IMG/VR virus record: IMGVR_UViG_3300009436_000130
Location: 1 to 21,400 of that record
Reading direction: 5' to 3' (one strand)
Source of the DNA: a virus
DNA length: 21,400 nucleotides
Shown here: positions 1,682 to 18,159 of the stretch, one piece after another
How positions within the stretch are numbered: the first letter of the stretch is position 1
Layout of the letters: each line of letters begins with the position of its first letter
The notes under the pieces: generated by a model
Told to the model about the DNA's origin: nothing
The model's input: the letters and a program-made list of their open reading frames with translations, nothing else
Databases searched by the model: none
Position numbers and translations under genes: made by a program

Positions 1682-2029
1682 TTAATCATTTAATATTTGA
1701 TCTGCAGTTCTTGGTAATCTTGCATATCTAATTATGTTATTCACAGAAGTTTCTTTTAAGTCTAATATTAATGATATTGTTTTTGCATCAAATTTTTTAT
1801 GCATCAAATCATTAATTTTTTTACCATTTTCACTTAATTTAACTTTTTGTTTTATTCTGCCTCCTAAATTATCATGTGTTTGTGAAGTTTTACCATATGC
1901 ATAAATACTTTCATTTAATTTTTTTTCACCAGCAGTTCCTTTTGCTGAAAGTTTCATTAACATTCCAAGTTCAACTTCTGTAGCTTTTCGCCCATTTTTT
2001 TCAATGAATTCCTTTAAAATGTTTCTCAT
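1682..2029 (-). CDS. Small protein with a possible C-terminal helix-turn-helix
   Basis: A 115-residue basic protein, the last gene of the leftward block. The N-terminal half is rich in Lys and Glu (FIEKNGRKATEVELGMLMKL). Residues about 70-108 (INDLMHKKFDAKTISLILDL then SVNNIIRYARLPRT) have the spacing of a helix-turn-helix of the homeodomain-like or resolvase type: a small helix, a turn, then a recognition-like helix. This suggests DNA binding but no family is recognised. Its ATG overlaps the previous stop as ATGA at 2026-2029, indicating translational coupling. Confidence 0.7.
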   Translation of the reverse strand: MRNILKEFIEKNGRKATEVELGMLMKLSAKGTAGEKKLNESIYAYGKTSQTHDNLGGRIKQKVKLSENGKKINDLMHKKFDAKTISLILDLKETSVNNIIRYARLPRTADQILND

Positions 2030-2217
2030 TCAAAAAATCCTTTTTTATGTTGCATGATTTTAAATTCTTTTAATTTTTGCTTAGCATCAAAATAGTTTTG
2101 TTTTGCATTTTTTCCAGAATTTTTATCACACCATAAATCTAATGTTTTTTCACAATCAGCTCTTAATATTTTTAAATAAGCTAAATCTTCTGGTTTCATG
2201 CGTTTATTGTTTAACAT
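2026..2217 (-). CDS. Small charged protein, unknown
   Basis: A 63-residue, Lys-rich, probably all-helical protein (YLKILRADCEKTLDLW, then AKQNYFDAKQKLKEF). It overlaps the upstream HTH gene by 14 nt and the downstream gene by 4 nt. No clear Shine-Dalgarno lies before either Met1 or the alternative Met7 (start at 2199), so the exact start is uncertain and translation probably depends on coupling. No recognisable domain. Confidence 0.6.
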   Translation of the reverse strand: MLNNKRMKPEDLAYLKILRADCEKTLDLWCDKNSGKNAKQNYFDAKQKLKEFKIMQHKKGFFE

Positions 2218-2389
2218 TGATGATTGCCGTTTCTATTTTGTGTTGAACCAACAATCCATTTAATCGTTGTCGACTAATACCTATAGCTTTTGCTGTTTCA
2301 ACTTTGCTTTTGTTTTTTTGCAATTGTTCTTTTATTAATTTTATTTGAGCGTTTTTGTGATTTTTATTTAATTTTTCCCAGAGTGTCAT
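2204..2389 (-). CDS. Fis-type helix-turn-helix small protein
   Basis: A 61-residue protein. Residues about 18-52 (IKEQLQKNKSKVETAKAIGI followed by SRQRLNGLLVQHKI) match the Fis-like HTH_8 pattern: a helix, an A-x-x-x-G-I-S turn, then the S-R-Q-R-L recognition helix and a final hydrophobic turn. This is the short DNA-binding module found at the C-terminus of NtrC activators and as free-standing small phage proteins. It may act as a local regulator or DNA-bending protein. Its ATG overlaps the upstream stop by 4 nt (2386-2389), so it is co-translated with the 118-residue gene. The HTH call is moderately firm; role is inference. Confidence 0.75.
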   Translation of the reverse strand: MTLWEKLNKNHKNAQIKLIKEQLQKNKSKVETAKAIGISRQRLNGLLVQHKIETAIINVKQ

Positions 2390-2742
2390 AAACCAAAAAT
2401 CCTTTCTAATTTTTTTACTGTGAATAATCCATTATATTTGGGATGGCGTGCCATAAATAATCTGGCATATAGCGATATAAAGTCATTGTTTATTTTATAT
2501 TCAGCTTCATTATCAAAAATTTCAATTTGAACCTCCCAGCGCATACGATTGGCAATCAACCAAGCAGAAGCCTTTTTCTTTTTAGCGGCAACTTCTTTAG
2601 CAAAGTCTTCAAACAGTGAATAAACGTGTGGGTCTACCCTTCTGTGGTATAAAAACCTAGATGCTAAACAATTTTTATCCATAGGGTCACGCGCTTCTTT
2701 TAAAAAGTTTACAAATTCATTTTCATCATTAAATTTACTCAT
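2386..2742 (-). CDS. Conserved phage protein, unknown function
   Basis: A 118-residue protein with the recurring phage pattern SAWLIANRMRWEVQ, then KINNDFISLYARLFMARHP, then a C-terminal hydrophobic helix. I recognise this as a widespread hypothetical family in tailed-phage early regions, but its function is not known. The start is placed at the second Met (2742) because GGAGG at 2753-2749 sits 6 nt upstream; the first Met (2748) would be directly against it. It overlaps the upstream coiled-coil gene by 8 nt. Confidence 0.75.
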   Translation of the reverse strand: MSKFNDENEFVNFLKEARDPMDKNCLASRFLYHRRVDPHVYSLFEDFAKEVAAKKKKASAWLIANRMRWEVQIEIFDNEAEYKINNDFISLYARLFMARHPKYNGLFTVKKLERIFGL

Positions 2743-2917
2743 TTCCATCCTCCATTAATTTTTCTAATTTATTTAATTCATCTTTAATCCAAAAAATCCT
2801 ATCTTGTTGAACCTCCTCCTTTTCATATAGTTTTTGTTTTTCAATTTGGATATTAGCCAATTTTGATTTGGCATCTGTAAGTGAAGCTTCCATTGCGGTA
2901 TGCATTTTACCTATCAT
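2735..2917 (-). CDS. Small coiled-coil protein
   Basis: A 60-residue, highly charged protein predicted to be one long coiled coil (residues about 10-58: ASLTDAKSKLANIQIEKQKL, then EEVQQDRIFWIKDELNKLEK). Alternative starts at Met5 or Met9 cannot be excluded. Its ATG overlaps the upstream stop by 4 nt (2914-2917). Function unknown; such small coiled coils often act by binding another phage protein, which is inference only. Confidence 0.65.
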   Translation of the reverse strand: MIGKMHTAMEASLTDAKSKLANIQIEKQKLYEKEEVQQDRIFWIKDELNKLEKLMEDGNE

Positions 2918-3156
2918 GTGTGGTTCTCCTGTACTGTTTCTTCAAAATATTCTTGAAATTCTACCATCAGTGCGTTTTTAAGCCTGTTTGAGATGGGTTT
3001 GCGGCTTTCAGTGTTAAATATATCACCAAAGTCAATATCAACCTCTGGTGGGCTAAATTGAGTGCCACGATCAATTGCAATATTGTATTCTACAGAGACT
3101 TCAAATGTGAAGCCCCTGTATTCCAATTCCAATGTATGTTCATTTGAATAATACAT
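2914..3156 (-). CDS. Small acidic beta-rich protein, unknown
   Basis: An 80-residue protein starting MYYSNEHTLELEYRGF. The upstream in-frame extension to 3255 is rejected because it is the wrong frame of another gene (3140-3304), and because GGAAAG lies just before the ATG at 3156. The first half alternates as beta strands (ELEYRGFTFEVSVEYNIAI). A PPEVDIDFGDIF segment and a C-terminal helix follow. It overlaps the preceding gene by 17 nt. No family recognised. Confidence 0.72.
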   Translation of the reverse strand: MYYSNEHTLELEYRGFTFEVSVEYNIAIDRGTQFSPPEVDIDFGDIFNTESRKPISNRLKNALMVEFQEYFEETVQENHT

Positions 3157-3304
3157 TATTTCTTTTCCAAACTTTATAAGCTTCAATAGTTTTTTGATTT
3201 TGAGCAAGTGGAGCTTCATCAACAAAAGCGATGAATTTATCCCATTCCATACCAAGCCATTTGCATTGGTTTTTTAATATGGTTGTTGCGCTTTTGATTT
3301 GCAT
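3140..3304 (-). CDS. Small protein of 54 residues, unknown
   Basis: A short reading frame that begins at an ATG sharing a base with the stop of the upstream gene (TAATG at 3306-3302) and ends in TGA at 3142-3140. The product has an ordinary soluble composition: N-terminal ATTILKNQCKWLGMEW, a middle DKFIAFVDEAPLAQNQ, and a C-terminal helix ending VWKRNNVLFK. It fills exactly the gap between two other genes, which supports it being real. Function unknown. Confidence 0.75.
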   Translation of the reverse strand: MQIKSATTILKNQCKWLGMEWDKFIAFVDEAPLAQNQKTIEAYKVWKRNNVLFK

Positions 3305-3525
3305 TATATTTCCCTCCCTAACTGGATGCGCATTCCAACGCGCTCTTCAGCCCATCTTTTAGCTTCATTAAATGTATCAAAGCCAAGTTTTACTGGAAAA
3401 GTAACAGCGTGGTCACCTTTTGGCATGTGCAATTCATAGTAATCATCTTCAAATTTTGTAATTGAACATGGTTTAATTGAATTTGTAGCGAAGTGAGTTT
3501 CATCAGTGAATTTAAAAGTCATCAT
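3304..3525 (-). CDS. Small protein with FDT-A-W-ERV C-terminal motif, operator-controlled
   Basis: A 73-residue protein, first of a separate leftward transcription unit. GGAG lies 7 nt upstream of the ATG at 3525, and the 19-bp palindromic operator (3574-3592) lies 48 nt upstream. The N-terminal part looks like beta strands (FEDDYYELHMPKGDHAVTF). The C-terminal helix reads FDTFNEAKRWAEERV. The same pattern, FDT-x3-A-x2-W-x2-ERV, ends the product of 18212-18592, and both genes have nearly identical operators. Function unknown. Confidence 0.75.
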   Translation of the reverse strand: MMTFKFTDETHFATNSIKPCSITKFEDDYYELHMPKGDHAVTFPVKLGFDTFNEAKRWAEERVGMRIQLGREI

Positions 3526-3573
3526 TTTTTTTCTCCATTGTTAATATAATCACTTTATCAAACCACCATGCAG

Positions 3574-3592
3574 TGTAAAGTATTATTTTACA
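3574..3592 (-). promoter_or_regulatory. Palindromic operator, copy 1 (TGTAAAGTATTATTTTACA)
   Basis: A 19-bp imperfect palindrome upstream of the 73-residue gene. On the minus strand its distal arm ends in TTTACA, usable as a -35 hexamer, but no convincing -10 lies 16-18 bp further on. The 24 bp beginning at 3574 are identical to the copies at 18160 and 18644. A second half-site-like GTGTAAAAAGT follows at 3598-3608. Confidence 0.75.
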
Positions 3593-3650: not shown

Positions 3651-4490
3651 TTAAATTTCTGCCCATTCGCGGGTATTCATAGCTTTGGCTATCAATCCTT
3701 CACGATTTCGAGTTACTGATTGTGGTGTACTTGATTTGCTATCAGTATGTGTTGCCCAATGTGTAAGGCAATTATATAAAGCCCATTTGTTTTTACCCAA
3801 ATCATTGAATTCATTTCCAAGTTGTTTCATCAAAATTTCTAATTGTTTTGAATTAAATTTTTCTTCTGATGTTTTTGAATTTCTTTTTGTAACATTGTTT
3901 TTGAAAAAAGTTTCTGCTTGGTTAAGTTTTACAGGAGTTTTCATATATTCATTCCACAAAGTTTTTTGATTATGAAAAGTTTCCAAACCACTAATTATTT
4001 TTTGTGCTGAGCTTTCAGTACTTACTTGTGAAGTATGACGCATCCAAACTTTGGATATAGCATCTGGTGTAGTACAACCATTTAAACACCACAAACGCAA
4101 TGCATCAGCAGATGTTTGATATGCCCATGAACCATCATAACTGTTATAGCCACGAACTCTATATTTTACATAATCACCTTTTGATGGTTCTGTAACAATA
4201 TCATTAAATAAAACATCAATTTGTAATTTACGACCCCCGTCCAATGCAATCACTTCAAAATTAAAATCATTTGATACATTTGCATTTTTAATGCTGTCAT
4301 ATGTTGAATTAACAACATCATCATGAGAAAGAACATGATAACTATTTCTATGAACATGTAAAACTGTTCCAGTATCAGCACGAACTAAACTCTTCCACCC
4401 TTCAATTGGCTCACTCATACCTTGCGGTACAATAGGCATTTCATTAACTTCAAAATTCCATTGGTTTTCATTTTCTTTAAAATCTAACAT
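3651..4490 (-). CDS. DUF932 family phage/plasmid protein
   Basis: A 279-residue soluble protein matching the DUF932 (phage/plasmid-like TIGR03299) family. Seen are an N-terminal segment with VLHVHRNSYHVLSHDDVVNS, a middle VKYRVRGYNSYDGSWAYQTS, then LRLWCLNGCT, and a C-terminal WALYNCLTHWATHT region. Members are common beside recombination and replication genes on phages and plasmids; the biochemical role is not established. The start is set at 4490 (MLDFKENE) because GGAG at 4500-4497 is 6 nt upstream; the longer start at 4502 lacks a site. It is divergent from RusA across an 82-96 bp gap containing operator copy 2, and is followed by a hairpin. Confidence 0.87.
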   Translation of the reverse strand: MLDFKENENQWNFEVNEMPIVPQGMSEPIEGWKSLVRADTGTVLHVHRNSYHVLSHDDVVNSTYDSIKNANVSNDFNFEVIALDGGRKLQIDVLFNDIVTEPSKGDYVKYRVRGYNSYDGSWAYQTSADALRLWCLNGCTTPDAISKVWMRHTSQVSTESSAQKIISGLETFHNQKTLWNEYMKTPVKLNQAETFFKNNVTKRNSKTSEEKFNSKQLEILMKQLGNEFNDLGKNKWALYNCLTHWATHTDSKSSTPQSVTRNREGLIAKAMNTREWAEI

Positions 4491-4543
4491 TTTTATCTCC
4501 ATTTGATTAATGTGTATTTACTTACTAACATAGCCAAATCTAG

Positions 4544-4562
4544 TGTAAAGTAAAAATTTACA
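4544..4562 (-). promoter_or_regulatory. Palindromic operator, copy 2 (TGTAAAGTAAAAATTTACA)
   Basis: A 19-bp inverted repeat of the same family as the other four, in the divergent gap between DUF932 and RusA, 54 bp from the DUF932 start and 24 bp from the RusA start. It may act on both genes. On the minus strand TTTACA is positioned as a -35 element; the matching -10 is weak (AGTAAG at 17 bp). Confidence 0.7.
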
Positions 4563-4586: not shown

Positions 4587-5021
4587 ATGGCAATTCAAAC
4601 ATGTATATTTAAAGTTGAAGGTCAACCAATTGGCAAATCAAGACCTAGGTTTTCAACAAAAACTGGAAAAGCATATACACCTAGCAAAACTCGTGATTAT
4701 GAAAAAAAAGTAAAACAATCTGCTTGGGTTGCTATGAGCAAATTAAAATTAAAACCTTCAACATCTAGATGTAGTGTTATTATTACTTGTTCAATGGAAA
4801 TACCAAAATCATATAGTAAACAAAAAAGAGTATTTTGTGAAGCTGGTGTTATTATACCGCCAAGACCTGATATTGATAATTTAATAAAATCGGCATTAGA
4901 CGGAGCAAATGAAATTGTTTATTTGGATGATAAACAAGTATGGCACGTTTCAGCTTTTAAAAAATATACTGAACATGATGAAAGGCCAAGTATGCTTGTT
5001 AAAGTTCAATGGGAAGATTAA
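4587..5021 (+). CDS. rusA: RusA-family Holliday junction resolvase
   Basis: A 144-residue homodimeric endonuclease that resolves four-way DNA junctions formed during recombination and replication, generating packageable linear DNA. The N-terminus has the family GQPIGKSRPRF strand. The catalytic core is RPDIDNLIKSALDGANEIVYLDDKQV, with Asp95 and Asp97 and the later Asp114/Asp115 pair as metal ligands. Length is typical. A start at 4587 follows AAAAAGG with a 9-nt gap. It is the only plus-strand gene inside the leftward block. It is divergent from DUF932, and its TAA (5019-5021) overlaps the opposing stop of the HNH gene (5018-5020). It joins ERF and SSB as a recombination set. Confidence 0.93.
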   Translation: MAIQTCIFKVEGQPIGKSRPRFSTKTGKAYTPSKTRDYEKKVKQSAWVAMSKLKLKPSTSRCSVIITCSMEIPKSYSKQKRVFCEAGVIIPPRPDIDNLIKSALDGANEIVYLDDKQVWHVSAFKKYTEHDERPSMLVKVQWED

Positions 5022-5320
5022 TAAGTGTCTGAATATGTATAATCAGCTCCATACTTTTCTCTCCAAGCTGTTTTGTCTTTGTGTATTGCTAATTTTGAAG
5101 TATCCCAAAGACCTTGGTGATGTCCTTCACATAACGGAATTGCATCTAAATCAGATGTTTTGCCACCGCTAAACCTGTCATGAAAAACATGATGTGCTGT
5201 TGTTGGTGAAATTTGTGGCTCATGAAATGTTTGGCAAATTATACAATTGCGTTGTCTAATTTCATTTAAAAAATTTTTATTTTTTATTGGCTTTGGTTTT
5301 TTAAAATTTGATTTAATCAC
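5018..5320 (-). CDS. HNH endonuclease, Ref/DUF968-like
   Basis: A 100-residue zinc-dependent HNH-type nuclease. A Cys pair (CIICQTF) opens the fold, followed by TTAHHVFHDRFSGGKTSDL, IPLCEGHHQG, and AIHKDKTAWREKYG. This order of Cys-x2-Cys, His-His, a G-G-K-x-S-D loop, LC-x2-HH and a C-terminal helix is that of the P1 Ref / DUF968 group, which includes a RecA-dependent nuclease. A role in phage recombination fits its place among ERF, SSB and RusA. The start is a GTG at 5320 overlapping the upstream stop; no Met is available before the first Cys. Specific subfamily is uncertain. Confidence 0.82.
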   Translation of the reverse strand: MIKSNFKKPKPIKNKNFLNEIRQRNCIICQTFHEPQISPTTAHHVFHDRFSGGKTSDLDAIPLCEGHHQGLWDTSKLAIHKDKTAWREKYGADYTYSDTY

Positions 5321-5537
5321 TTAAAAACAATCCAATTGGCCTTAATTTTGGCGTTAAATAAATAGAAGATGTTTTGTTAGTTTCAATACATTGCGCCATA
5401 CTATCCATATTTTCATATGGTTTATATACAGATGGCAAAGCGTTTCCACATTCGTATGCGTTTCTATATAAAGTTTTCTTTTCTATTTCTACGCCACCAA
5501 CTACATATGTTAAAACTAAGAATGTATAAAAACTCAT
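5313..5537 (-). CDS. Small protein with hydrophobic N-terminus, possibly exported
   Basis: A 74-residue protein beginning with a hydrophobic run (FYTFLVLTYVVGGV, residues 3-16). It is followed by a polar body with two Cys spaced about 20 residues apart (YECGNALP and MAQCIETN). The N-terminus could be a short signal or anchor and the cysteines a disulfide, pointing to a periplasmic or membrane protein; both are inference. It overlaps its upstream and downstream neighbours by 4 and 8 nt. No family recognised. Confidence 0.65.
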   Translation of the reverse strand: MSFYTFLVLTYVVGGVEIEKKTLYRNAYECGNALPSVYKPYENMDSMAQCIETNKTSSIYLTPKLRPIGLFLSD

Positions 5538-5809
5538 TTTCCTGTCCTCATTGACTCTTGTTGTCTTTCATATTCACTTTGTTCAGCTTCGGCAGTTACA
5601 GACCATTCACCATCGTGTACTTGTACAAATCCTGTTGCCGCAATACTTTTTATAAAATCATGGAAAACTAATTGTCGGTCTTGGTGATTTATAATCATTC
5701 CATTTTTATTTGGTCTTCTGTCACATAACTGTCTGGGTTTTGCATAACACTTCGGGCATGGCATTGCTCTTATCATAATTTGTTCATCAGTATATTTAAA
5801 TTCTTTCAT
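5534..5809 (-). CDS. Phage zinc-finger DNA-binding-like protein
   Basis: A 91-residue protein. Residues about 18-45 show CPKCYAKPRQLCDRR and then a His-Gln-Asp-Arg near 42-45, matching the phage zinc-binding pattern C-P-x-C-x-A-x-P-x3-C ... H-x2-R (phage_zn_bind_8 type). The ligands would be Cys18, Cys21, Cys29 and His42, approximately. The C-terminal third is charged and helical. It probably binds nucleic acid, although the partner is unknown. The ATG overlaps the previous stop (ATGA, 5806-5809). Confidence 0.72.
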   Translation of the reverse strand: MKEFKYTDEQIMIRAMPCPKCYAKPRQLCDRRPNKNGMIINHQDRQLVFHDFIKSIAATGFVQVHDGEWSVTAEAEQSEYERQQESMRTGK

Positions 5810-6225
5810 TTTAATAACTCCATTGGGTCAATTTCTAATTTTTCAGACAAAACATTCATGGCATTATCAAAAAATGTGTTAAATTCTTTTTGATTCATTG
5901 CATCAAATGAAATGCTATCAACTACACAAAAAACTCCACCTGTAATTTCATTGATAACGGATTTATAATAACCAGTTAAAAACTTAATATCATGATGTAA
6001 ATGTGTAGATGTTGGCCATTTACCTGTTGTTTCAACAACAGCATTTAATATTGTCCAATAATATTTATGATGTGGGTTTGATCTACTGGAAACAAATTTT
6101 AAATCAAATATTTGGTTTTGTTTGCAACTTTCAATTGCTTCAGCATCATAACGAGTGATGGGGCTTAATACCCCATCACGCAATTCTACTTGTATTTTTG
6201 GTGGTTTAGAATGGGATTTCATCAT
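5806..6225 (-). CDS. DUF1367-like phage protein
   Basis: A 139-residue protein whose spacing matches DUF1367, a family found in lambdoid phages near recombination genes. Seen are SRSNPHHKYYWTILNAVVE, the later LTGYYKSVINEITGGVFCVV, and SISFDAMNQKEFNTFFDNAM. The function of the family is not established. The start ATG-ATG at 6225/6222 lies within the last codons of SSB, giving a 20-nt overlap, so translation is probably coupled to SSB. Its place in a run of ERF, SSB and nuclease genes argues for a DNA-metabolism role. Confidence 0.72.
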   Translation of the reverse strand: MMKSHSKPPKIQVELRDGVLSPITRYDAEAIESCKQNQIFDLKFVSSRSNPHHKYYWTILNAVVETTGKWPTSTHLHHDIKFLTGYYKSVINEITGGVFCVVDSISFDAMNQKEFNTFFDNAMNVLSEKLEIDPMELLK

Positions 6226-6568
6226 CTAAATCATTTGATTGAGGCACAGGTGCTTGATATGAACTATCATTGCTTTGATTTGTTTTATTGCCAGTTAAAT
6301 CAAGAGAATTTACATTACATGTTAAATAAGTTTTGCCATTGTATTCTCTTGTCCCAAAATCGCCGTTTATGACCACGGATTGTCCCTTTTTAAGCCAAGG
6401 TGAAACTGCTGAACCACCTTTACCCCAATAAGAACAATCAAAATATATTACTTCTTTTGTTCTTCTGTCATTAACAGCAACACTAAAACCAGCAACTTCT
6501 AAACCTGTTTGTGTTTTTCTTAATTCACAATCTTTAGTAAGATTTCCAGATATACATATAGTTTTCAT
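6206..6568 (-). CDS. ssb: Single-stranded DNA-binding protein
   Basis: A 120-residue OB-fold protein. The N-terminal domain starts ISGNLTKDCELRKTQTGLEV and continues with FSVAVNDRR, IYFDCSYWGKGG, WLKKGQSVVINGDFGTREYN and GKTYLTCNVNSLDL, all in the order of bacterial SSB. A short Ser/Gln/Asn linker leads to the acidic tip DLDDEIPF that recruits partner proteins in bacterial SSBs. It protects single strands and probably assists the adjacent ERF annealing protein. Its ATG overlaps the ERF stop (TAATG). Confidence 0.95.
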   Translation of the reverse strand: MKTICISGNLTKDCELRKTQTGLEVAGFSVAVNDRRTKEVIYFDCSYWGKGGSAVSPWLKKGQSVVINGDFGTREYNGKTYLTCNVNSLDLTGNKTNQSNDSSYQAPVPQSNDLDDEIPF

Positions 6569-7170
6569 TAATTAATTCCCAATTCAATTTGCTTGTTTTC
6601 CCAAGCTGTTGCTATTTTTTGTGAAAAATCAGCATCAGTTAATCTGATTTCACTTATTAATTTAGATGCTTTATCAAACATGCCATTAAATTTATCAGCA
6701 TTTGCTGTTTCAATAAATTTCATTAATTTTATTCCGCGTTCAACTGCAGTTTCATGTTGTGTTGGTGATTTAACATTTTGATTTTTTTTACCAGTTGCTA
6801 AATTGCCATCATCATCTTCCACAGGAACACCACTCATTGATGATAATCCATATCTACGTGCATATGTAATTGCACCTCCATATGATTGCATATCATCTTT
6901 TTTGTAATGCAAATAAACTTTGCATGTAAATTTTTCACCACTTACATGTGCAAAAATTGTTTCAACATAATCACCCAAATCATCTTTCATTGGTAATTGC
7001 ATAATTGCAAAACCATTTGCATGAAAAACAGGCAACACGGCTTGTTGTATTGCATTTAAATCAGCATAATTGTTTTTTAAAAAAGGGTTTTTTGCATTTT
7101 TAATTGCCGCTCCCAATTGTGATTGAGACAACATAAAAGCTTGAATAGCTTCATTTGTTTGTTTTGTCAT
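6568..7170 (-). CDS. erf: ERF-family single-strand annealing protein
   Basis: A 200-residue recombinase of the Erf superfamily, which anneals complementary single strands for phage recombination and genome circularisation. The family core is clear: NPFLKNNYADLNAIQQAVLP, then GFAIMQLP, TIFAHVSGEKFTC, and QSYGGAITYARRYGLSSMSG with VPVEDDDGN. The C-terminal 70 residues are helical and more variable, as usual. It starts at an ATG overlapping the Gp157-like stop (TAATG), after AAGGATG on the minus strand. With SSB, RusA and HNH it forms a complete annealing-type recombination module. Confidence 0.93.
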   Translation of the reverse strand: MTKQTNEAIQAFMLSQSQLGAAIKNAKNPFLKNNYADLNAIQQAVLPVFHANGFAIMQLPMKDDLGDYVETIFAHVSGEKFTCKVYLHYKKDDMQSYGGAITYARRYGLSSMSGVPVEDDDGNLATGKKNQNVKSPTQHETAVERGIKLMKFIETANADKFNGMFDKASKLISEIRLTDADFSQKIATAWENKQIELGIN

Positions 7171-7652
7171 TATTTCATCCTTATAGATACAGTTTGAGCA
7201 CCAGTGACCAATTCAGCCCCATCAATTTTGATACCCGCTTTTAATTGTTTTTTGATTTCTGTTTTATCTGGTGTGATAGACACCTTGCACAATTGAGACG
7301 GTATTTCCTTTTCATCAATGATCGAAACGCTTTCTGTGCCTTTGCGTAATGATACAGTTGCTAATTCATGTGGTATTTTTGACTGCTCAGTACATAACAA
7401 AACAGTCTTTAAAATTTTATTTAGTTTTTCTTTACGATGTTCATGTAATGATTTTCGTTCTTGATATTGTTGCATCAATGTTTTGCAAGCAATAACCCCA
7501 GCATCAGCTTCATTAATACGTTTTAAAGTTTCACCAACTAAATCTAAAACATCTGTTTCGCCGTCCAATGTATCCCAATATGCATCTTCATCATCTTTAT
7601 AAGGGATTAATTCTTCAGCAACTAAAGTTAACAAATTTGTATCTAATCGCAT
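7170..7652 (-). CDS. Siphovirus Gp157-like protein
   Basis: A 160-residue protein matching the Siphovirus Gp157 family, common directly upstream of ERF or SSB in tailed phages. The N-terminal two thirds is a long charged helix or coiled coil (residues about 45-90, QQYQERKSLHEHRKEKLNKI). The C-terminal beta part reads ATVSLRKGTESVSIIDE, then KVSITPDKTEIKKQLKAGI. Family members are implicated in resistance or recombination but the mechanism is unclear. Its start overlaps the first gene of the operon by 10 nt. Confidence 0.88.
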   Translation of the reverse strand: MRLDTNLLTLVAEELIPYKDDEDAYWDTLDGETDVLDLVGETLKRINEADAGVIACKTLMQQYQERKSLHEHRKEKLNKILKTVLLCTEQSKIPHELATVSLRKGTESVSIIDEKEIPSQLCKVSITPDKTEIKKQLKAGIKIDGAELVTGAQTVSIRMK

Positions 7653-7867
7653 TTGCTTGCTTTCGAAGCTTTATTAAAATCCTTAACAGCTTGTTCAATT
7701 GCTTTTTCAATGAATTGAATAGCATCCGCTGGAAATTGTTGTGCTAAATATGCTTGTTGTGTTATTTCACCAGACTGTGCTTTATTAACTAATTCAGTTG
7801 ATCTGTTTGAAATTTTATCAATTATTGTTCTCCGCACAAAAAGTAACGGTGTTTTATTATTACCCAT
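7643..7867 (-). CDS. Small helical protein, first gene of the early leftward operon
   Basis: A 74-residue protein starting MGNNKTPLLFVRRTIIDKIS. The start at 7867 is preferred over 7894 because GGAGG (7877-7873) stands 5 nt upstream, while the longer frame runs into the promoter region. It is predominantly helical and charged (DAIQFIEKAIEQAVKDFNKA). No domain is recognised. It is the promoter-proximal gene of the recombination operon, downstream of operator copy 3. Confidence 0.75.
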   Translation of the reverse strand: MGNNKTPLLFVRRTIIDKISNRSTELVNKAQSGEITQQAYLAQQFPADAIQFIEKAIEQAVKDFNKASKASKCD

Positions 7868-7913
7868 AATGTCCTCCATTTGACTTTTAAACATTATGAA
7901 AAAAATGGTGTAA

Positions 7914-7932
7914 TGTAAAGTGCAACTTTACA
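7914..7932 (-). promoter_or_regulatory. Perfect palindromic operator, copy 3, early leftward promoter
   Basis: TGTAAAGT-GCA-ACTTTACA: two perfect 8-bp arms around a 3-bp centre, the most symmetric of the five copies. On the minus strand TTTACA serves as a -35, followed 15 bp later by CATAAT (7898-7893). On the plus strand the other arm also presents TTTACA (7927-7932), with TATACA 19 bp on, so it may control both directions of the divergent region. Confidence 0.8.
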
Positions 7933-9543: not shown

Positions 9544-10104
9544 ATGAAAAAATGGCCAGCAACAGAAGTTGAAATGGTAAATTTAGACAAAGTTATACCA
9601 TATGCCAGAAATAGTCGCGTACATAGTGATGAACAAGTTGCGCAAATAGCATCAAGCATACAAGAATGGGGTTTTACTGTTCCAATTTTAATGGATGAAG
9701 GATTTGGCTTGATAGCTGGTCATGGAAGATTAATGGCGGCACAAAGATTAGGTTTAAAAGAAATACCAGCAATGGTTGCTAAAAATTGGACTGAAGCACA
9801 AAAAAAAGCATACATTATAGCAGATAATAAATTAGCTATGAATTCCACATGGGATGAAGCTATGCTTAAAATCGAAATTAAAGAATTGACTGATTTAAAT
9901 TTCGATACTGATTTAACAGGTTTTTCATTAGATGATTTAGCATCATTATTTGATGATACAGAAAAAGATTATGAATTACCTGATGAACAAGAATATAAAG
10001 AAACATATGAAGTTGCAGTAATATGTGATGGAGAAGCACAACAAGAAAAAATGTATAATGAATTGGTTGAGAAAGGATACAAATGCCGAATTTTAACCAT
10101 GTAG
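9544..10104 (+). CDS. ParB/Srx-fold nuclease-domain protein
   Basis: A 186-residue protein with the ParB N-terminal fold at residues about 8-95: VNLDKVIPYARNSRVHSDEQ, then IASSIQEWGFTVPILMD, then LIAGHGRLMAAQRLGL, where the G-H-G-R-L-x-A-A box corresponds to the nucleotide-binding loop. EAQKKAYIIADNKLA follows, as in phage ParB-domain proteins associated with DNA methylation and modification. The C-terminal YEVAVICDGEAQQEKMYNEL region is a further small domain shared by such proteins. There is no partition partner (ParA) or centromere in view, so plasmid-type partition is unlikely. It overlaps the ABC-GNAT gene by 22 nt, implying that the two products act together, with the preceding AGGAGGG giving strong initiation. 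Confidence 0.85.
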   Translation: MKKWPATEVEMVNLDKVIPYARNSRVHSDEQVAQIASSIQEWGFTVPILMDEGFGLIAGHGRLMAAQRLGLKEIPAMVAKNWTEAQKKAYIIADNKLAMNSTWDEAMLKIEIKELTDLNFDTDLTGFSLDDLASLFDDTEKDYELPDEQEYKETYEVAVICDGEAQQEKMYNELVEKGYKCRILTM

Positions 10105-11180
10105 TAGAAACAGATTACACGCCATCATTTAGAACAGAAAAAGTTGTAGGTATGTTTGATGTGCCTATATCTGGCAAATTAACAAAAGAATGGCATATAA
10201 ATATGCCCCTTGAAGAAAATCCTTGGCAAGTTGGTTTGATTGTAGGTTCTTCTGGGGCTGGTAAAACAACAATAGCTAGAAAAGTATTCGGTGATGATGC
10301 CTATCATTTTGGTTATGAATGGAAAAAATCTTCTTTATTAGATGATTTCGATGCTTCACTTTCAGCTGTAGATGTAACTAATTCATTATCACATGTTGGC
10401 TTTTCTTCGCCGCCTTCTTGGTTATTACCATATAGGGCATTAAGTAATGGTCAAAAATTTAGAAGTGAATTAGCCAGAACATTGACTGATAAACGAGATT
10501 TAATTGTTTTTGATGAATTTACATCTGTTGTAGATAGGGATGTTGCAAAAGTTGGCAGTCATGCTGTTCAAAAATCAATAAGAAAAACAGACAAACAATT
10601 CGTAGCAGTTACTTGTCATTATGATGTGGAGGGGTGGTTACAACCAGATTGGGTTTATGATGTTTCCGCTAATACTTTCACTTGGGGGTGTCAAAGGCGA
10701 ACAAAAGCGAAAATCGAGGTATTCAGATGTCATCATGTTGCGTGGCGATTGTTTGTGGGAAACCACTATTTAAGTGCTGATTTAAACAAAGCATCAAAAT
10801 GTTATATAATGTTTTTTGACGGACAGCCCGCGGCTTTTAGTGCTATATTACCTTTTCCACACCCTTATTTAAAAAATACTTGGAAAGAACACAGAACAGT
10901 TACATTGCCAGATTATCAAGGTTTTGGGCTTGGCAACAGATTAAGTGAGTTTGTTGGTGAAATGTTGCATGAGCAAGGTAAACAATTTCGCAGTGTTACG
11001 TCACATCCAGCAATGATTGGTCATAGATATAGATCAAATGCTTGGATTATGGATAGAGCCCCAAGTAGATTAAAAGCTCCTGGAAAAAGAGGAACAATAC
11101 AAAACAATAAAAATACATCTATAAACAGATTAACAGCTTCATTTATTTATGTGCCAAAAGAAAAAAGAAAGCTTAAATAG
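10083..11180 (+). CDS. ABC-type ATPase fused to GNAT acyltransferase domain (COG2401-like)
   Basis: A 365-residue soluble fusion. Residues about 1-205 are an ABC ATPase: Walker A GSSGAGKT (55-62), a signature-like LSNGQ (120-124), Walker B LIVFDE (140-145) and an H-loop His179 (VTCHY). There are no transmembrane segments, so it is not a transporter. Residues about 210-345 are a GNAT-like domain with motif A QGFGLGNRL (279-287) for acyl-CoA or related cofactor binding. This architecture is COG2401. Mom of phage Mu is also GNAT-like and modifies adenine, so a DNA hypermodification role with the overlapping ParB protein is plausible, but it is inference. Target and chemistry are not visible. The start follows GAAAGGA and overlaps the upstream gene by 22 nt. 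Confidence 0.88.
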   Translation: MPNFNHVVETDYTPSFRTEKVVGMFDVPISGKLTKEWHINMPLEENPWQVGLIVGSSGAGKTTIARKVFGDDAYHFGYEWKKSSLLDDFDASLSAVDVTNSLSHVGFSSPPSWLLPYRALSNGQKFRSELARTLTDKRDLIVFDEFTSVVDRDVAKVGSHAVQKSIRKTDKQFVAVTCHYDVEGWLQPDWVYDVSANTFTWGCQRRTKAKIEVFRCHHVAWRLFVGNHYLSADLNKASKCYIMFFDGQPAAFSAILPFPHPYLKNTWKEHRTVTLPDYQGFGLGNRLSEFVGEMLHEQGKQFRSVTSHPAMIGHRYRSNAWIMDRAPSRLKAPGKRGTIQNNKNTSINRLTASFIYVPKEKRKLK

Positions 11181-11679: not shown

Positions 11680-12877
11680 AACACCTAGATGGTGCTTACC
11701 ATTATTAAATGGTGATAGGGGAAAGCCAAGGTATAGAGGTGCTAAAGGTGGTCGTGCATCAGGCAAATCACATTTTTTTGGTGAAGCTGTCATTGAAAGA
11801 TTAATAGAAGAACCCAACACAAAAATAATATGTATTCGTGAAGTTCAAAAATCATTAGAATTTTCTTCTTTGCAATTATTAAAAGACAAAATAAATAAAA
11901 TGGGTGTTGGCCATTATTTTGAAATACAAAAAAATAGAATTATGACTGTTAAAGGAAAAGGAATAGTTATTTTTCAAGGTATGCAAGATCATACTGCTGA
12001 AAGCGTTAAATCTTTGGAAGGTTTTGATGTTGCATGGGTGGAAGAAGCACAATCAATGTCTAACAGGTCATTGGAATTATTAGACCCTACAATAAGAAAA
12101 GAAGGTTCTGAATTATGGTTTTCATGGAATCCTAATTTAGATACAGACCCTGTTGAGCAAATATTTAAAAATAATGACAATGCTGTACTGGTACATGTTA
12201 ATTATTTAGATAATCCATTTGTTACTGATGCAACAAAAGAAATGGCTAAACGTACAAGGGCAAATAATGTTTTAAAATACAATCATATTTGGCTTGGCGA
12301 TTACATGAAGGAAGTTGAAGGTGCTTTGTGGAATGGTGATATGTTGCAAGCATCAAGGGTAAACAAAGATGAAATACCTGATTTAACAAGAATTGTAGTT
12401 GCTATTGACCCATCTGTAACAGGAAATGCCAAATCAGACGAAACAGGCATAGTTGTAGCTGGTAGAACCGCTAATGATGATACATATTATGTATTGGAAG
12501 ATTGTTCCCTCAGAGGCACTCCTGATCAATGGATAAGGAGGGCTGTAGTCAAATATCATGAATATCAAGCAGATAGAATTATAGCTGAAGTCAATAATGG
12601 TGGTGATTTGGTTGAAAATCTGTTAAGAAATACAGATAAGAATGTTTCATACCGATCTGTTCGTGCTACAAGGGGCAAAATGTTGAGAGCTGAACCAATA
12701 GCCGCACTATATGAAAATAAAAAAGTCTTTCATGCTGGAAAATTTTCAGAATTAGAAGAACAGATGATTTTTTATAACGGACGTGGTAATGTATCACCAG
12801 ACAGACTTGATGCCCTTGTATGGGCAATAACAGATTTATCCCAATCAACGGGGCAACCAATGTGGAGAATTAGTTGA
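11660..12877 (+). CDS. terL: Terminase large subunit
   Basis: A 405-residue packaging motor ATPase and nuclease of the PBSX/Terminase_3 type. The ATPase domain shows Walker A GGRASGKS (30-37), Walker B VAWVEEA (124-130) and the coupling motif SWNP (155-158). The nuclease domain has Asp250 (VVAIDPSVTG), Glu310 (IIAEVNNGG) and Asp384 (SPDRLDALVWA) as probable metal ligands. The start is a TTG at 11660: an in-frame stop lies just upstream and no ATG or GTG occurs before the conserved N-terminus, so either this TTG or another rare codon is used. It overlaps TerS by 20 nt, and its TGA overlaps the portal ATG (TGATG). Confidence 0.95.
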   Translation: MSILPIETPRWCLPLLNGDRGKPRYRGAKGGRASGKSHFFGEAVIERLIEEPNTKIICIREVQKSLEFSSLQLLKDKINKMGVGHYFEIQKNRIMTVKGKGIVIFQGMQDHTAESVKSLEGFDVAWVEEAQSMSNRSLELLDPTIRKEGSELWFSWNPNLDTDPVEQIFKNNDNAVLVHVNYLDNPFVTDATKEMAKRTRANNVLKYNHIWLGDYMKEVEGALWNGDMLQASRVNKDEIPDLTRIVVAIDPSVTGNAKSDETGIVVAGRTANDDTYYVLEDCSLRGTPDQWIRRAVVKYHEYQADRIIAEVNNGGDLVENLLRNTDKNVSYRSVRATRGKMLRAEPIAALYENKKVFHAGKFSELEEQMIFYNGRGNVSPDRLDALVWAITDLSQSTGQPMWRIS

Positions 12878-14349
12878 TGGCAATATTAGATTTTTTTCGC
12901 AAAGCACCCCTAAATACATTTGAATTAAAGGATGCTCCTCGAGTACACGTTCAACAAACTACACCTTATCATAATAGGTCAGATAATTTTAAATCATATG
13001 CAAAAGAAGGTTATCAACAAAATGCTATTGTTTACAGATGTGTAAATGAAATAGCGCAAGGTGCGGCTTCAATTGATTTTAAAGTTTTTCAAGGTGATAT
13101 TGAACTTGAAAGACACCCATTGATTGATTTGTTAAAAAGGCCAAACCCTTTACAGGCTGGCAATGAATATTTTCAATCATTGTATTCTTTTTTGTTATTA
13201 TCAGGTAATAGTTATGCAATAAACAGTACTGCTGGCGGTGTTCCTTCTGAATTACATTTATTAAGACCTGATAGAGTTGAAATTATACCAAGTAACAATG
13301 CTATTCCAAAAGGTTATAATTATAAATTAAATGGAAAAGTAGTTAATACATATGAAGCTGACCCATTTACTGGTCAATCAGATGTAAAACATTTTAAATT
13401 TTGGAATCCACTTGATGATTATTTGGGATTATCACCACTTATGGCGGCTTCAATTGATGTAGACCAACATAATCTTATAGCAAAACATAATATTGCATTA
13501 TTAGTAAATGGTGCAAGACCGTCTGGGGCAGTTGTGTTTAAACCGCAAGACACATCTGGAAATGCTATGATGCTTTCAGATATACAAAGAAAACAAATAC
13601 AAGATGATTTAAACAGAAGAATGTCAGGAACAAATAATTCTGGCAAACCTATGTTGCTTGAAGGTGATTTTGATTGGAAAGAAATGGGGATGTCACCGCG
13701 AGATATGGATTTCTTGCAAAACAAGCATATGGCGGCAAAAGATATTGCATTATGTTTTGGAATACCTTCACAATTAATAGGAATTCCAGACAGTCAAACA
13801 TATGCAAATGTTCAAGAAGCACGTTTAGCATTATATGAAGAAACAATAATTCCTTTGGCTATGCGTGTTTGCAGTGATTTAAATGAATGGTTAGCACCAA
13901 GTTTTGGTGATGATATAACAATACAATATGACATAGATAGTATACCAGCAATGACTGAAAGAAGACGTAGGGTATATGAAAATGTAACATCAGCAGTTCG
14001 TGAAGGAATAATTAGCAGAAATGAAGCACGTGAAAAATTAGGTTTAAGCCCAATTGATGGTGGTGATGAAGTATTTATTGCGGCTAATTTGTTTCCTTTG
14101 GGTGGTGTTGAAGTTGCACAAGATGAAGGGATTGATGCAGAAGACGCTGGAAAATCTGCATATGATCAAAAATTAGATGAATATCCTGATGGTTCTCCTG
14201 TGCCTGATGGATTGCCAAATGCTTATAGGTTAAGTGAAAATGACAAACTGTGCAGTAATTGTTCATATTATGAAAAAGGACTATGCACACGTTTCAATGC
14301 GGCGGTTAAAGCAAAATATGTATGTAATGCTTGGAAAGCAAATGAATAA
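12877..14349 (+). CDS. Portal protein, HK97 family, with C-terminal Cys cluster
   Basis: A 490-residue protein that forms the dodecameric DNA gateway at the capsid vertex. The HK97/SPP1-like portal core is clear: YQQNAIVYRCVNEIAQGAAS, HPLIDLLKRPNPLQAGNEYF, HLLRPDRVEIIP, IRHF-like VKHFKFWNPLDDYLGLSPL, the DFLQNKHMAAKDIALCFGIP helix and NVQEARLALYEETIIPLA. The C-terminal about 90 residues extend past the usual end. They contain four cysteines, Cys459, 462, 470 and 483 (C-x2-C-x7-C-x12-C), possibly a metal site. ATG 12877 overlaps the TerL stop; a TTG at 12874 is an alternative. GGAG lies 9 nt upstream. Confidence 0.94.
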   Translation: MAILDFFRKAPLNTFELKDAPRVHVQQTTPYHNRSDNFKSYAKEGYQQNAIVYRCVNEIAQGAASIDFKVFQGDIELERHPLIDLLKRPNPLQAGNEYFQSLYSFLLLSGNSYAINSTAGGVPSELHLLRPDRVEIIPSNNAIPKGYNYKLNGKVVNTYEADPFTGQSDVKHFKFWNPLDDYLGLSPLMAASIDVDQHNLIAKHNIALLVNGARPSGAVVFKPQDTSGNAMMLSDIQRKQIQDDLNRRMSGTNNSGKPMLLEGDFDWKEMGMSPRDMDFLQNKHMAAKDIALCFGIPSQLIGIPDSQTYANVQEARLALYEETIIPLAMRVCSDLNEWLAPSFGDDITIQYDIDSIPAMTERRRRVYENVTSAVREGIISRNEAREKLGLSPIDGGDEVFIAANLFPLGGVEVAQDEGIDAEDAGKSAYDQKLDEYPDGSPVPDGLPNAYRLSENDKLCSNCSYYEKGLCTRFNAAVKAKYVCNAWKANE

Positions 14350-14386: not shown

Positions 14387-14680
14387 ATGGCCTATGGTAT
14401 AGAAATATTTAGTTCATCAGGTGTAACCACTTTTTCTTCTGAAGATACTACATGGAATTTAATAGGTTCTTTTAATGCGCCAGCAAATACAAGTACAACT
14501 TTTTCATGCGCTGTTTATCCAGAAAGGATAGTAAGCAGACTTATGTTAAATCAAGTTACTGGAGATGATGAAGCTTATGTTCATGAATATTCATTGCCAA
14601 CTAACTCAACTACTCTCACTGTAACAGCACCAAGTTCTTCAGATACATCTGAAACACAATTTTTAGTGTTTGGTAGATAG
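14387..14680 (+). CDS. Small virion-surface-like protein
   Basis: A 97-residue, Ser/Thr-rich, probably all-beta protein that begins MAYGIEIFSSSGVTTFSSED. This opening (Y/T-G-I/V-x-I/V, then a short turn) also begins the next gene's product (MVTGVQIKNNDNKILI), and it resembles small proteins often seen in tail or surface modules of marine phages (DUF6453-like, not verified). The C-terminal stretch TNSTTLTVTAPSSSDTSETQ is low in charge, as in exposed virion proteins. AGGAG lies 6 nt upstream of the ATG. A structural role is inferred from composition and position. Confidence 0.7.
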   Translation: MAYGIEIFSSSGVTTFSSEDTTWNLIGSFNAPANTSTTFSCAVYPERIVSRLMLNQVTGDDEAYVHEYSLPTNSTTLTVTAPSSSDTSETQFLVFGR

Positions 14681-14681
14681 C

Positions 14682-15716
14682 ATGGTTACAGGAGTACAAA
14701 TAAAAAATAATGACAATAAAATACTTATAGATAGTGATTTATCACATTATCATTTTTTAGGTAAATATACAGCATATAGTACAACACAAACACCAGACAT
14801 TATGGATGGACCTGGCAATTTAAGTTATGGACCTAATCAAAATAAAGATATGACAGGTATGCCAGATAAAGGAAATATTTTTAAATATAGTATTCCTTCC
14901 AATGGTGCAAAGCCTCCAATGGTTTTTATTAAAAATGTAAGTGATGCTTTTATGGCTGTAGTTTTAACAAGTAAATCAGGTTCAAACTGGGATACTTGGA
15001 TTTTTTGTAGCAGTGGTACTGTAAGTGCGCCAACAGTTTATGCATTTAGCCCAAGAAATCAAATGTCTACAACTCTTACTGGATATGGGTTAGAAGTATA
15101 TGACAGTAGCGGAAATATTTCATTTGACTCTAAAATAAAACCATTAAGAGTAATTGGTGGTGGAAACATAACAAGCCCATCTGTTGCGCATACAGGTTCA
15201 TTAGGAGGAGTTTTTATTTCTACTTTAGGGGTAAATTCTTCAGATACCACTGTATCATTTACATCTAGCGTTACTGCTAATGATATAATTTATTATTGTC
15301 CTTCAATATCTCATGCGGCACACCAATATGAATACCAAGCATCAGATAGCGGTATTGAAGATTGGAATAACTATGCATGGTCTAGGGGTGATATATGGTG
15401 GGCTTTTTATCGCTCTGGATTTAAAATTACATCAGGAAGTGGCAATACTAAATATTTTAAAGCTAATTATGGAGTATATGCAAGGGGTCATGTTTGGCAA
15501 CATTCAGCAAGTAGTTCTAGTATATTCGCTGGATTGATATTAGGTGCATTGACAGGGGGTGCATATTTCGCCGCCGCCATAGCACTTGTTGTTGCGGCTG
15601 GTGGGTTTACAAATGCTGGTGTATCATCTGGTGGTTATTTGCCATATGCGAACAGTTCAAGAAATTCTACTTTGCAAAATACATTTATTCTTACAAGGGC
15701 TTCTTATTATGACTGA
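14682..15716 (+). CDS. Putative virion structural protein, tail-fibre or decoration-like
   Basis: A 344-residue, Gly/Ser/Thr/Asn-rich protein. The N-terminus (MVTGVQIKNNDNKILIDSDL) is followed by repeated short beta segments. A late region rich in aromatics (YEYQASDSGIEDWNNYAWSR, IWWAFYRSGFKI) precedes a hydrophobic stretch at about residues 275-310 (IFAGLILGALTGGAYFAAAI) and an LPYANSSRNS tail. Composition suggests an exposed virion protein; the hydrophobic segment could be a buried core or a membrane-contact region. ATG 14682 lies 1 nt after the preceding stop. A 4-codon longer TTG start is possible. It overlaps the next gene by 8 nt. Confidence 0.65.
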   Translation: MVTGVQIKNNDNKILIDSDLSHYHFLGKYTAYSTTQTPDIMDGPGNLSYGPNQNKDMTGMPDKGNIFKYSIPSNGAKPPMVFIKNVSDAFMAVVLTSKSGSNWDTWIFCSSGTVSAPTVYAFSPRNQMSTTLTGYGLEVYDSSGNISFDSKIKPLRVIGGGNITSPSVAHTGSLGGVFISTLGVNSSDTTVSFTSSVTANDIIYYCPSISHAAHQYEYQASDSGIEDWNNYAWSRGDIWWAFYRSGFKITSGSGNTKYFKANYGVYARGHVWQHSASSSSIFAGLILGALTGGAYFAAAIALVVAAGGFTNAGVSSGGYLPYANSSRNSTLQNTFILTRASYYD

Positions 15717-16569
15717 TGTAGCTACTATGTGTGAAAATCATTGTGGTGGATGGGAAATAATATCTAAAAACCAAATTGATAATACTTTTATTTTAACAGT
15801 CTCAACTGTATCAGTAGACCCTTGTGAATATGATAATGACTTACACACTAAATTACATGAAGGTATGTCCAGCCATTCACATAGGAAAATAATTAAAACA
15901 GAATTAATTACTTTTGACCATGACCCAACTGACAGTGAAATTGAGTCTGAATTAATTAGTCTTGGATTTAATCCTGTAATACAATCATGTGTATATGGTT
16001 CTACATTCGCATTTTCTGGAAATGTAGAATTAATAAATAATAATACGGTTCAGAAAACAACACCAATTAAAACTGTTACAGATGGTGAAGATGATGTTTT
16101 TGAATATAGCAGAATATTGCATCCAGAAAATTTTCAAGAACTATATAACATGATACCAATTGATCTTGATGAAATACCAACATCAATGTCTAAAAAAGGT
16201 AATTGGTTGTTTTTATATTATGTTAAAGAAGGTTCTGTAAGGCCTGAACAATTTTTTAGTGATGATTATTTTTTGTATTCAGTAAGAATACATAAGGATA
16301 CAGGACAAATTGTTCGCAAAGGTTACAACAAAGGATTAACTTTAACTGAAGATGAAATGTCAAACCTTGAAGGTACAGACGATATAGAAAATGTAATAGC
16401 AACAGGCTATTTTTTAGATGAACCAAAAACTACAATATATTATATGAGATCATCAGAACCCGAAGATTTTGTAAATAACCCAGCTGTTGTGGAAATTCCA
16501 TATCTAGGCACGACTTGGCAAGATGGAGTTAAATTGCATACAAGAGAATATATGAGGGGTGATTTGTAA
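15709..16569 (+). CDS. Hypothetical protein linked to the surface-protein genes
   Basis: A 286-residue acidic protein starting MTDVATMCENHCGGWEIISK. The start is put at 15709 because ATGACTGA overlaps the preceding stop and an ACAAGGG site is upstream; the longer frame from 15586 is the wrong frame of the previous gene. Mixed alpha/beta composition, with a possible repeat of FILTVSTVSVDP and TFAFSGNVELI strands and a C-terminal IPYLGTTWQDGVKL. It may be a fibre-assembly or minor virion protein, judged only from neighbours. It converges on the minus-strand island, 21 bp from the opposing stop. Confidence 0.68.
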   Translation: MTDVATMCENHCGGWEIISKNQIDNTFILTVSTVSVDPCEYDNDLHTKLHEGMSSHSHRKIIKTELITFDHDPTDSEIESELISLGFNPVIQSCVYGSTFAFSGNVELINNNTVQKTTPIKTVTDGEDDVFEYSRILHPENFQELYNMIPIDLDEIPTSMSKKGNWLFLYYVKEGSVRPEQFFSDDYFLYSVRIHKDTGQIVRKGYNKGLTLTEDEMSNLEGTDDIENVIATGYFLDEPKTTIYYMRSSEPEDFVNNPAVVEIPYLGTTWQDGVKLHTREYMRGDL

Positions 16570-16572: not shown

Positions 16573-16671
16573 ATGATAAAATTAATTTTGTTAATTATTG
16601 GTATTCTTGCTTTTGGGTTTTTTTATTTTTTTACTTTTGGGATTAACATTATAAATTTTATAAGTGTGTAA
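16573..16671 (+). CDS. Possible 32-residue hydrophobic microprotein
   Basis: A short frame, MIKLILLIIGILAFGFFYFF and on to NFISV, forms one uninterrupted membrane segment. TAAGG lies only about 2 nt before the ATG, which is too close to be ideal. It overlaps the 3' end of the opposing gene (16591-16746), so it may be only the shadow of an Asn/Lys-rich tail in AT-rich DNA. Confidence 0.25.
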   Translation: MIKLILLIIGILAFGFFYFFTFGINIINFISV

Positions 16672-16746
16672 AACAGGTTCAACTTCTTTTTCCCATTCAT
16701 TAGAAAAGTAATCATTAAATTTTTTAAATAATTTTAAAATATACAT
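16591..16746 (-). CDS. Small basic protein, last gene of the inverted island
   Basis: A 51-residue protein starting MYILKLFKKFNDYFSNEWEK and ending in a Lys/Asn-rich tail (NPKSKKIKKPKSKNTNN). The start at 16746 is chosen for AAAGGA with a 6-nt gap; the frame upstream to 16818 has no site and overlaps the neighbouring gene. The amphipathic N-terminus and basic tail suggest membrane-surface or nucleic-acid binding, but nothing specific is recognised. Confidence 0.6.
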   Translation of the reverse strand: MYILKLFKKFNDYFSNEWEKEVEPVLHTYKIYNVNPKSKKIKKPKSKNTNN

Positions 16747-16801
16747 TTTGTTTCCTTTAATTAAAAAAATGAAACGATTATCAAAACCGCTTCCTGTTAT
16801 A

Positions 16802-17086
16802 TTAAGATATTGTACCAATAACTTCTACAGTATCATCTCTACCAAAATAACTTAGATTAAACCATCTGCCGTTATCTTTTAGTGAAGTCTTACCAAATTC
16901 TGCCGTAAATATATAATGGCCTTTAATCCATTTACCGACTAATCTTTCATTGGAATAACTAAATTCACCATTAGTAGAGCCAAGGCGTACTAGCATTTCA
17001 TTTGCACGTTTGCAAATTTCTTCACCAGTGTAACCAGCTTCAACTGGTTCTGGCAATTCTATCCAAACTTTCATCATTTTTGTCAT
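16802..17086 (-). CDS. Island protein, paralog B of a tandem pair
   Basis: A 94-residue protein starting MTKMMKVWIELPEPVEAGYT. It is a clear paralog of the product of 17145-17432. They share VWIEL-x-x-P, YTG-x2-IC-x-RAN-x-ML-x-RLG in the N-terminal half, and the identical 14-residue block DNGRWFNLSYFGRD followed by a GTIS end. The start follows AAGGGA by 6 nt; the longer frame to 17122 runs through the terminator hairpin. The fold is probably a strand, a helix, then beta hairpins. Function unknown. Translation is likely from its own site after partial readthrough of the hairpin at 17110-17133. Confidence 0.8.
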   Translation of the reverse strand: MTKMMKVWIELPEPVEAGYTGEEICKRANEMLVRLGSTNGEFSYSNERLVGKWIKGHYIFTAEFGKTSLKDNGRWFNLSYFGRDDTVEVIGTIS

Positions 17087-17109
17087 TTTTTGTCCCTTCA
17101 ATATGAAAA

Positions 17110-17133
17110 GCCCCAGCTTCAATTAGCTGGAGC
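17110..17133 (-). terminator. Terminator hairpin between the two paralogs
   Basis: On the minus strand GCTCCAGCT pairs with AGCTGGGGC (one mismatch) around AATTGA and is followed by TTTTCAT. It begins 12 nt after the stop of paralog A and ends before the ribosome-binding site of paralog B. The short U-run suggests partial termination that would lower expression of the two distal genes. Confidence 0.7.
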
Positions 17134-17144
17134 AAGTAATTATG

Positions 17145-17782: not shown

Positions 17783-17791
17783 TTTATTCTC

Positions 17792-17908: not shown

Positions 17909-17927
17909 GTGCCTCCTAGCACTATTT

Positions 17928-18104: not shown

Positions 18105-18159
18105 TTTATATTCTCCATTTGTTAAACTATATAATCAAAATACACCTTATTGGCTTACT

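Follow-up and report, generated by a model that had tools for sequence, protein, structure and literature searches.

The 19-bp dyad at positions 7914-7932 raises the question of whether it serves as an operator and, if so, which protein reads it and to what effect. The DNA analysed (the window) is the entire record, a 21.4 kb linear IMG/VR fragment, and contains five exact copies of TGTAAA-N7-TTTACA, with no sixth exact copy. When the window was shuffled 1000 times with dinucleotides preserved, the motif occurred 0.011 times on average and at most once, and TGTAAA/TTTACA hexamers at other spacings in the window are single occurrences (gaps of 1, 12 and 24). All five operators lie within the 7.9% of the window outside called genes, the 18644 site overlapping just one 46-aa ORF, which is probably spurious. 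The gene-side arm of each faces the start codon of a minus-strand gene at a distance of 46-55 bp (using likely start codons). A first-pass annotation of this DNA had placed the sites at 3574, 4544, 7914, 18160 and 18644, which is correct in every case, and 47-56 bp before minus-strand starts, which agrees to about a base; its description of the 7914 copy as a perfect 8-3-8 palindrome (TGTAAAGT GCA ACTTTACA) is true. The operators and their putative promoters are as follows:

3574-3592, minus strand: operator 1, TGTAAAATAATACTTTACA (minus strand), heading the small-gene operon (3525 to 1682) that contains the HTH gene; -35 TTTACA at 3574-3579, extended -10 TGA-TAAAGT at 3552-3560 (TGATAAAGT), spacer 16
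4544-4562, minus strand: operator 2, TGTAAATTTTTACTTTACA, promoter of the DUF932 gene; -35 at 4544-4549, extended -10 TGT-TAGTAA at 4522-4530 (TGTTAGTAA), spacer 16
7914-7932, minus strand: operator 3, TGTAAAGTTGCACTTTACA, promoter of the ERF/SSB recombination operon (7867 to 5018); -35 at 7914-7919, -10 CATAAT at 7893-7898, spacer 15
18160-18178, minus strand: operator 4, TGTAAAATAATACTTTACA, promoter within the accessory island; -35 at 18160-18165, -10 TATTTT at 18137-18142, spacer 17
18644-18662, minus strand: operator 5, TGTAAAATAATACTTTACA, promoter of the island gene 18212-18592, adjoining the MuF-like head gene; -35 at 18644-18649, -10 TATACA at 18621-18626, spacer 17

Promoter architecture was compared over 39 non-redundant sites aligned on the gene-side arm. 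With a spacer of 17 the -10 score reaches its highest mean and 30 of the 39 sites have A as the second -10 base; a TG located one base before the -10 is most frequent with spacers of 16 and 17. In four relatives (G001-G004) the gene-side arm reads TTGACA, the textbook -35, while the far arm is still TGTAAA. The -10 spacing and this TTGACA arm indicate that the gene-side arm is the -35 of a sigma70-type promoter, so that the far arm needs another explanation. The operator spans about -48 to -30 with its centre near -39, and the core -10s are mediocre and often of the extended type. The assignment of the distal arm (the gene-side arm here) to the -35 position in the first-pass annotation, with a -10 at 17 for copies 4 and 5 and at 15 for copy 3, is thus borne out; the extended -10 at 16 for the 3574 and 4544 sites was missing from it. 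Tandem dyads two bases apart were also observed among relatives (G007:33183-33222, G005:30545, and G006:8032 and 8699), for example TGTAAATTAACTGTTTACA-tt-TGTAATCATAAGCTTTACA, which suggests cooperative double operators in the G005-G007 clade.

Relatives were collected as 171 loci brought in by terminase, ERF and DUF932 scans. Their first 2.1 Mb hold 45 copies of TGTAAA-N7-TTTACA, none at gaps of 4, 5, 6, 9 or 10 and six at a gap of 8. Oriented exact matches were also counted in 24 assembled genomes or fragments, with TTGACA allowed on the gene side and each dyad scored once per strand, so that not every orientation has a gene. Of these matches, 104 have a gap of 7 and eight a gap of 8, the latter all located within genes; gaps of 5, 6 and 9 gave none. 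A same-strand ORF start lies 35-75 bp downstream in 73 of the 104. In general the sites stand about 46-58 bp ahead of start codons. The possibility, raised with the original annotation, that the motif is as frequent within genes does not hold: none of the five exact window sites is inside a called gene, and only 4/104 matches in relatives lie inside an ORF of at least 60 aa, where they run into the start region called for a divergent ORF. The operator is kept in related IMG/VR phages of 32-48% G+C with its spacing fixed at 7, and is therefore not a by-product of A/T richness. A scan of IMG/VR for the operator plus an extended -10 returned 62 stretches, of which the multi-site ones belong to the same phage family; single matches without the HTH gene may be chance. 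Phages of this family reach 44-48 kb, against 21.4 kb for the window fragment. Neither megablast of the window nor tblastn of two HTH orthologues gave a match among 50,697 phage records, and terminase scans of GTDB genomes yielded nothing close, only distant relatives in alphaproteobacteria (the best with 49% identity over full length; shorter stretches to 56%). No report of this operator in phages was found in the full text of open-access papers.

These dyads might instead be accidental palindromes, made up of promoter elements placed back to back or of an A/T-rich element of the UP type. On either strand TTTACA could pass for a -35, and one site (G014:20434) does have genes on both sides, at 51 and 56 bp. 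For most sites, however, a gene lies at promoter distance on one side only, and TTGACA is confined to the gene side. A search allowing one mismatch added 19 sites at promoter distance to the 73 exact 12-base dyads, and both arms were changed together at orthologous promoters of G016/G021. An accidental palindrome is accordingly regarded as highly improbable, and both a UP element and divergent promoter pairs were rejected. That the dyads are operators forming a regulon is, as a feature of the sequence, near certain, and conservation in relatives lends strong support to the earlier proposal of one trans-acting factor that works through a dispersed operator overlapping the -35 of leftward promoters.

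The transcription units under the operators in the window are:

1682-3525, minus strand: small-gene operon headed by operator 1, with members at 3304-3525, about 2914-3219, 2735-2917, 2386-2748, 2204-2389 (HTH), 2026-2217 and 1682-2029
3651-4490, minus strand: DUF932 gene under operator 2
5018-7867, minus strand: recombination operon under operator 3, comprising a 75/83-aa ORF, a Gp157-like gene, ERF (6568-7170), an SSB-like gene (6206-6568), 5806-6225 and further small genes
16591-18592, minus strand: leftward accessory island with operators 4 and 5, embedded in the rightward head genes between portal (12874-14349) and MuF-like gene (18739-20274)

Across the family the site occurs at orthologous promoters, namely those of DUF932, the ERF/Gp157 operon, the HTH-containing small-gene operon and the portal-MuF island. 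A site-bearing antisense island between portal and MuF is present in nearly every genome spanning the region (the window, G001-4, G007-10, G012-14 and G022-24), and G022/G024 carry two island promoters back to back, 46 bp apart. The genes of the island vary between phages and the operator-promoter is constant. The portal-MuF gap looks like a fixed antisense position in which small accessory genes vary, each behind its own operator-promoter, and it is a candidate place for counter-defence genes.

Several other features were recorded. The accessory island of the window contains tandem paralogues (16802-17122 and 17145-17432; MxVWIEL...TGxxICxRANxML...). The ORF at 10083-11180 carries the signature of an ABC-type ATPase together with a GNAT acetyltransferase domain, and the plus-strand ORFs 14670-15716 and 15586-16569 overlap by 131 bp in different frames, a possible frameshift or assembly error. 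Pfam matches to a Tet/JBP oxygenase, a TET-associated glycosyltransferase and an amino acid:DNA transferase in G009 and G014 (loci L176-L180) suggest that these phages may carry hypermodified DNA.

A candidate for the protein that reads the operator lies under operator 1:

2204-2389, minus strand: candidate regulator, a 61-aa stand-alone Fis/NtrC-type HTH (HTH_8-like) in the operon of operator 1

The protein cluster of this gene is the sole family found in all 14 of the site-bearing genomes scored, a HTH_36 replication protein and a ParB-like protein being nearly as widespread. The HTH gene lies in an operator-headed unit in 12/12 genomes checked, such units holding 15-60% of genes; as the genomes are related, the 14/14 and 12/12 counts are not independent. 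Two scans using the HTH only brought in nine new contigs (L343, L346-L349, L351, L352, L354 and L356). The operator was found upstream of the HTH gene in 8/8 of those whose upstream DNA was present, although all nine are close to known clades and some also surfaced in the operator-pattern scan. Some genomes have two HTH paralogues, the second, divergent copy being located at G009:27596-27862, G012:27027-27254 and G005:18293-18481. The first-pass annotation stated that no regulator gene was recognised in the window and named this HTH merely as a candidate for binding; that statement is probably wrong, as the protein is the best-supported regulator.

The window protein scores 17.5 bits against HTH_8 (PF02954), below the Pfam gathering cut-off of 22, and its match to HTH_3 is also below cut-off; the G014 orthologue reaches 24.2 bits with HTH_8, above the cut-off. 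At the sequence level the resemblance to Fis-type families is thus weak. The HTH profile matches NtrC-type DNA-binding domains in the PDB. An AF2 model (pLDDT 81) places helices at residues 3-25, 29-36 and 40-49, forming a long helix plus an HTH, and the best 20 VIA-align rows for this model are all of Fis or NtrC type (Z of 8.4 for NtrC4 and 8.1 for Fis); Foldseek E-values for so small a model exceed 1. Using hhalign over the HTH, hits were obtained to NinH (E 1e-4, probability 56, over 27 residues), Fis (2e-4) and the C-terminal HTH of TyrR (0.02), and the NinH family is absent from the Pfam matches. The predicted fold is that of a Fis/NtrC-type DNA-binding domain.

Operator and HTH also vary together. 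The seven-base operator centres differ by a mean Hamming distance of 2.3 within phages and 4.1 between them (p=2e-4), and this within-phage likeness is stronger in the centres than in the flanks. Among ten representatives, operators tend to differ more the further apart their HTH proteins are (rho 0.43, p=0.009), and this also holds for the representatives with a terminase (rho 0.39, p=0.019); the distance of the terminase, a single control protein, shows no such correlation (rho 0.08, p=0.26). An unbiased dyad scan showed that G016/G021, which form one clade, are without the TGTAAA operator and carry AGTAAA-N7-TTTACT at the HTH-operon promoter instead; in G016 this dyad is also present at the portal/MuF island. 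In the same clade the HTH residue at the position of Fis R85/NinH R30 is Lys, and all 14 site-bearing genomes have Arg there in their operon-linked HTH. Alanine mutants of Fis R85 and NinH R30 lose DNA binding (PMC7166090). From these sequence comparisons, it is considered likely that the HTH at 2204-2389 reads the operator.

The reader could also be a different phage protein, such as one whose gene lies beyond the window, or a TyrR-like regulator of the host. The window is a fragment of a larger phage, and TyrR boxes share both arms with the dyad. TyrR, however, needs N6 (G-N14-C) where the gap here is N7 throughout, the operator sequence differs between phage clades and does so together with the phage HTH, and no other gene family is in all of the site-bearing genomes scored. 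With this evidence on the two sides, a different reader is judged improbable. A second putative regulator, a Cro-like HTH_3 protein, is encoded beside the ERF operon in nine relatives (G009, G010, G012, G014-G017, G021 and G024):

L179:9770-10009 (G014) and L177:289-501 (G009), with orthologues: Cro-like HTH_3 gene

The ERF promoters of these genomes are without the TGTAAA operator. The window, G001-G004, G013 and G023 have the ERF operator (with one mismatch in G013/G023), and the HTH_3 gene is absent from them in the cluster set. The HTH_3 protein was thus rejected as operator reader, on account of its absence from the window's genes in that set and of the ERF promoters of its own genomes. 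The ERF operon seems to have been handed from one regulator to the other. A different inverted repeat, AATAAGGCAAAAGCCTATT, was noted at the ERF/HTH_3 locus of G014/G016/G021.

Taking together the sites, their spacing and conservation, the promoter geometry, the associated genes and the co-variation of operator and HTH, all of which are read from the sequences, we infer binding, dimerisation, repression and timing as follows. The 19-bp dyads would be operators of one phage-encoded transcription factor on sigma70-type promoters used by the host RNA polymerase. A dimer of the HTH protein would bind each (G-N15-C), placing a recognition helix on either TGTAAA arm. The leftward operons for recombination, DUF932, the small genes and the accessory island would fire early in infection; the HTH protein would then accumulate and shut all of them, including its own, in a Cro-like negative feedback, the bound dimer at the -35 excluding polymerase. 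This model of an autoregulated Fis-type HTH that represses early operons from operators overlapping the -35 is, as a whole, thought to be probable.

By occupying the -35 itself, the HTH protein would most likely repress. The same protein at the same operators might rather act as a class II-like activator, binding at about -39 and recruiting RNA polymerase to weak early or middle promoters. The mediocre, often extended -10s would fit such a role, the site centre is not far from class II positions, and TyrR also activates some promoters (PMC4374768). Against this, the recognition arm is the -35 hexamer and has moved towards the consensus TTGACA in one clade, from which it follows that polymerase reads the arm directly and would compete with the helix in the same groove. 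In addition, the ERF operon of G024 has a promoter with a TTTACA -35 and extended -10 but without the dyad. Activation is therefore viewed as rather unlikely, and repression is the more probable action.

The first-pass annotation had left the factor as a phage repressor or activator. The single factor is strongly supported; a CI-like lysogeny repressor is not. Tyrosine integrase (PF00589) was found in 0/13 records, and S24 peptidase (PF00717) and serine recombinase (PF00239) in 0/14 including the window, several of these records being fragments. On these 13-14 records, most of which may be incomplete, a CI-type lysogeny repressor was rejected. A timing switch in a virulent, or at least non-integrating, phage is likelier than lysogeny control, and the phage is probably non-integrating. 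The broader picture, of a probably virulent marine phage family run by a stand-alone, sequence-specific and autoregulated master repressor of the Fis type (~60 residues), with accessory genes joining through an operator-promoter cassette in the portal-head antisense slot and a joint change of operator and recognition helix (TGTAAA to AGTAAA), is put at about an even chance.

If true, the model would provide a transcription programme for an uncultured marine phage family that has no close match in the cultured-phage collection, and a Fis-type HTH would be able to act as a stand-alone specific phage regulator. In other genomes, the operator-promoter would then serve as a tag for accessory genes of the early class, with counter-defence as a possible function. 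Since TGTAAA and AGTAAA operators both exist in nature, the assignment of the regulator is open to direct test.

Phage lambda Cro and CI offer the familiar precedent of small phage HTH proteins that recognise dyads overlapping promoter elements, with negative feedback; the HTH described here is of another class and, as a rule, there is one operator per promoter. Anti-CRISPR-associated (Aca) autorepressors are small HTH proteins that repress the operon encoding them by way of an inverted repeat within its core promoter (PMC9410906), whereas the present operator is common to several separate operons plus the accessory island. Phage T7 has a 7 kDa DNA-binding protein, Gp5.7, which shuts off those promoters of its genome that the host polymerase uses (PMC5569994); it differs from the phage HTH in its winged-HTH-like fold and in also binding RNA polymerase. 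TyrR, which is autoregulated, represses tyrP and aroG from TGTAAA-N6-TTTACA-type boxes (G-N14-C) over the -35 (PMC4374768). It shares with the present system the TGTAAA/TTTACA arms, a box over the -35, autoregulation (proposed for the phage HTH) and a C-terminal HTH with which the phage protein is weakly colinear (hhalign E 0.02). The phage gap is N7 (G-N15-C), a gap of 6 giving 0 oriented exact matches; E. coli TyrR is a multi-domain protein of 513 aa and the phage protein a bare 61-aa HTH, with dispersed phage operons as its putative targets. Host TyrR was rejected as reader on the grounds of the gap (N7, not N6). NinH and Fis are small HTH proteins that resemble the phage protein in predicted fold, with the recognition Arg at the same place and a G/C dyad, and NinH is phage-encoded. 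No role of NinH as an operon-specific repressor is reported in PMC7166090, and the sites of both proteins are degenerate (G-N13-C; PMC7166090), whereas the operator of the present phages is G-N15-C with 12 nearly invariant bases.
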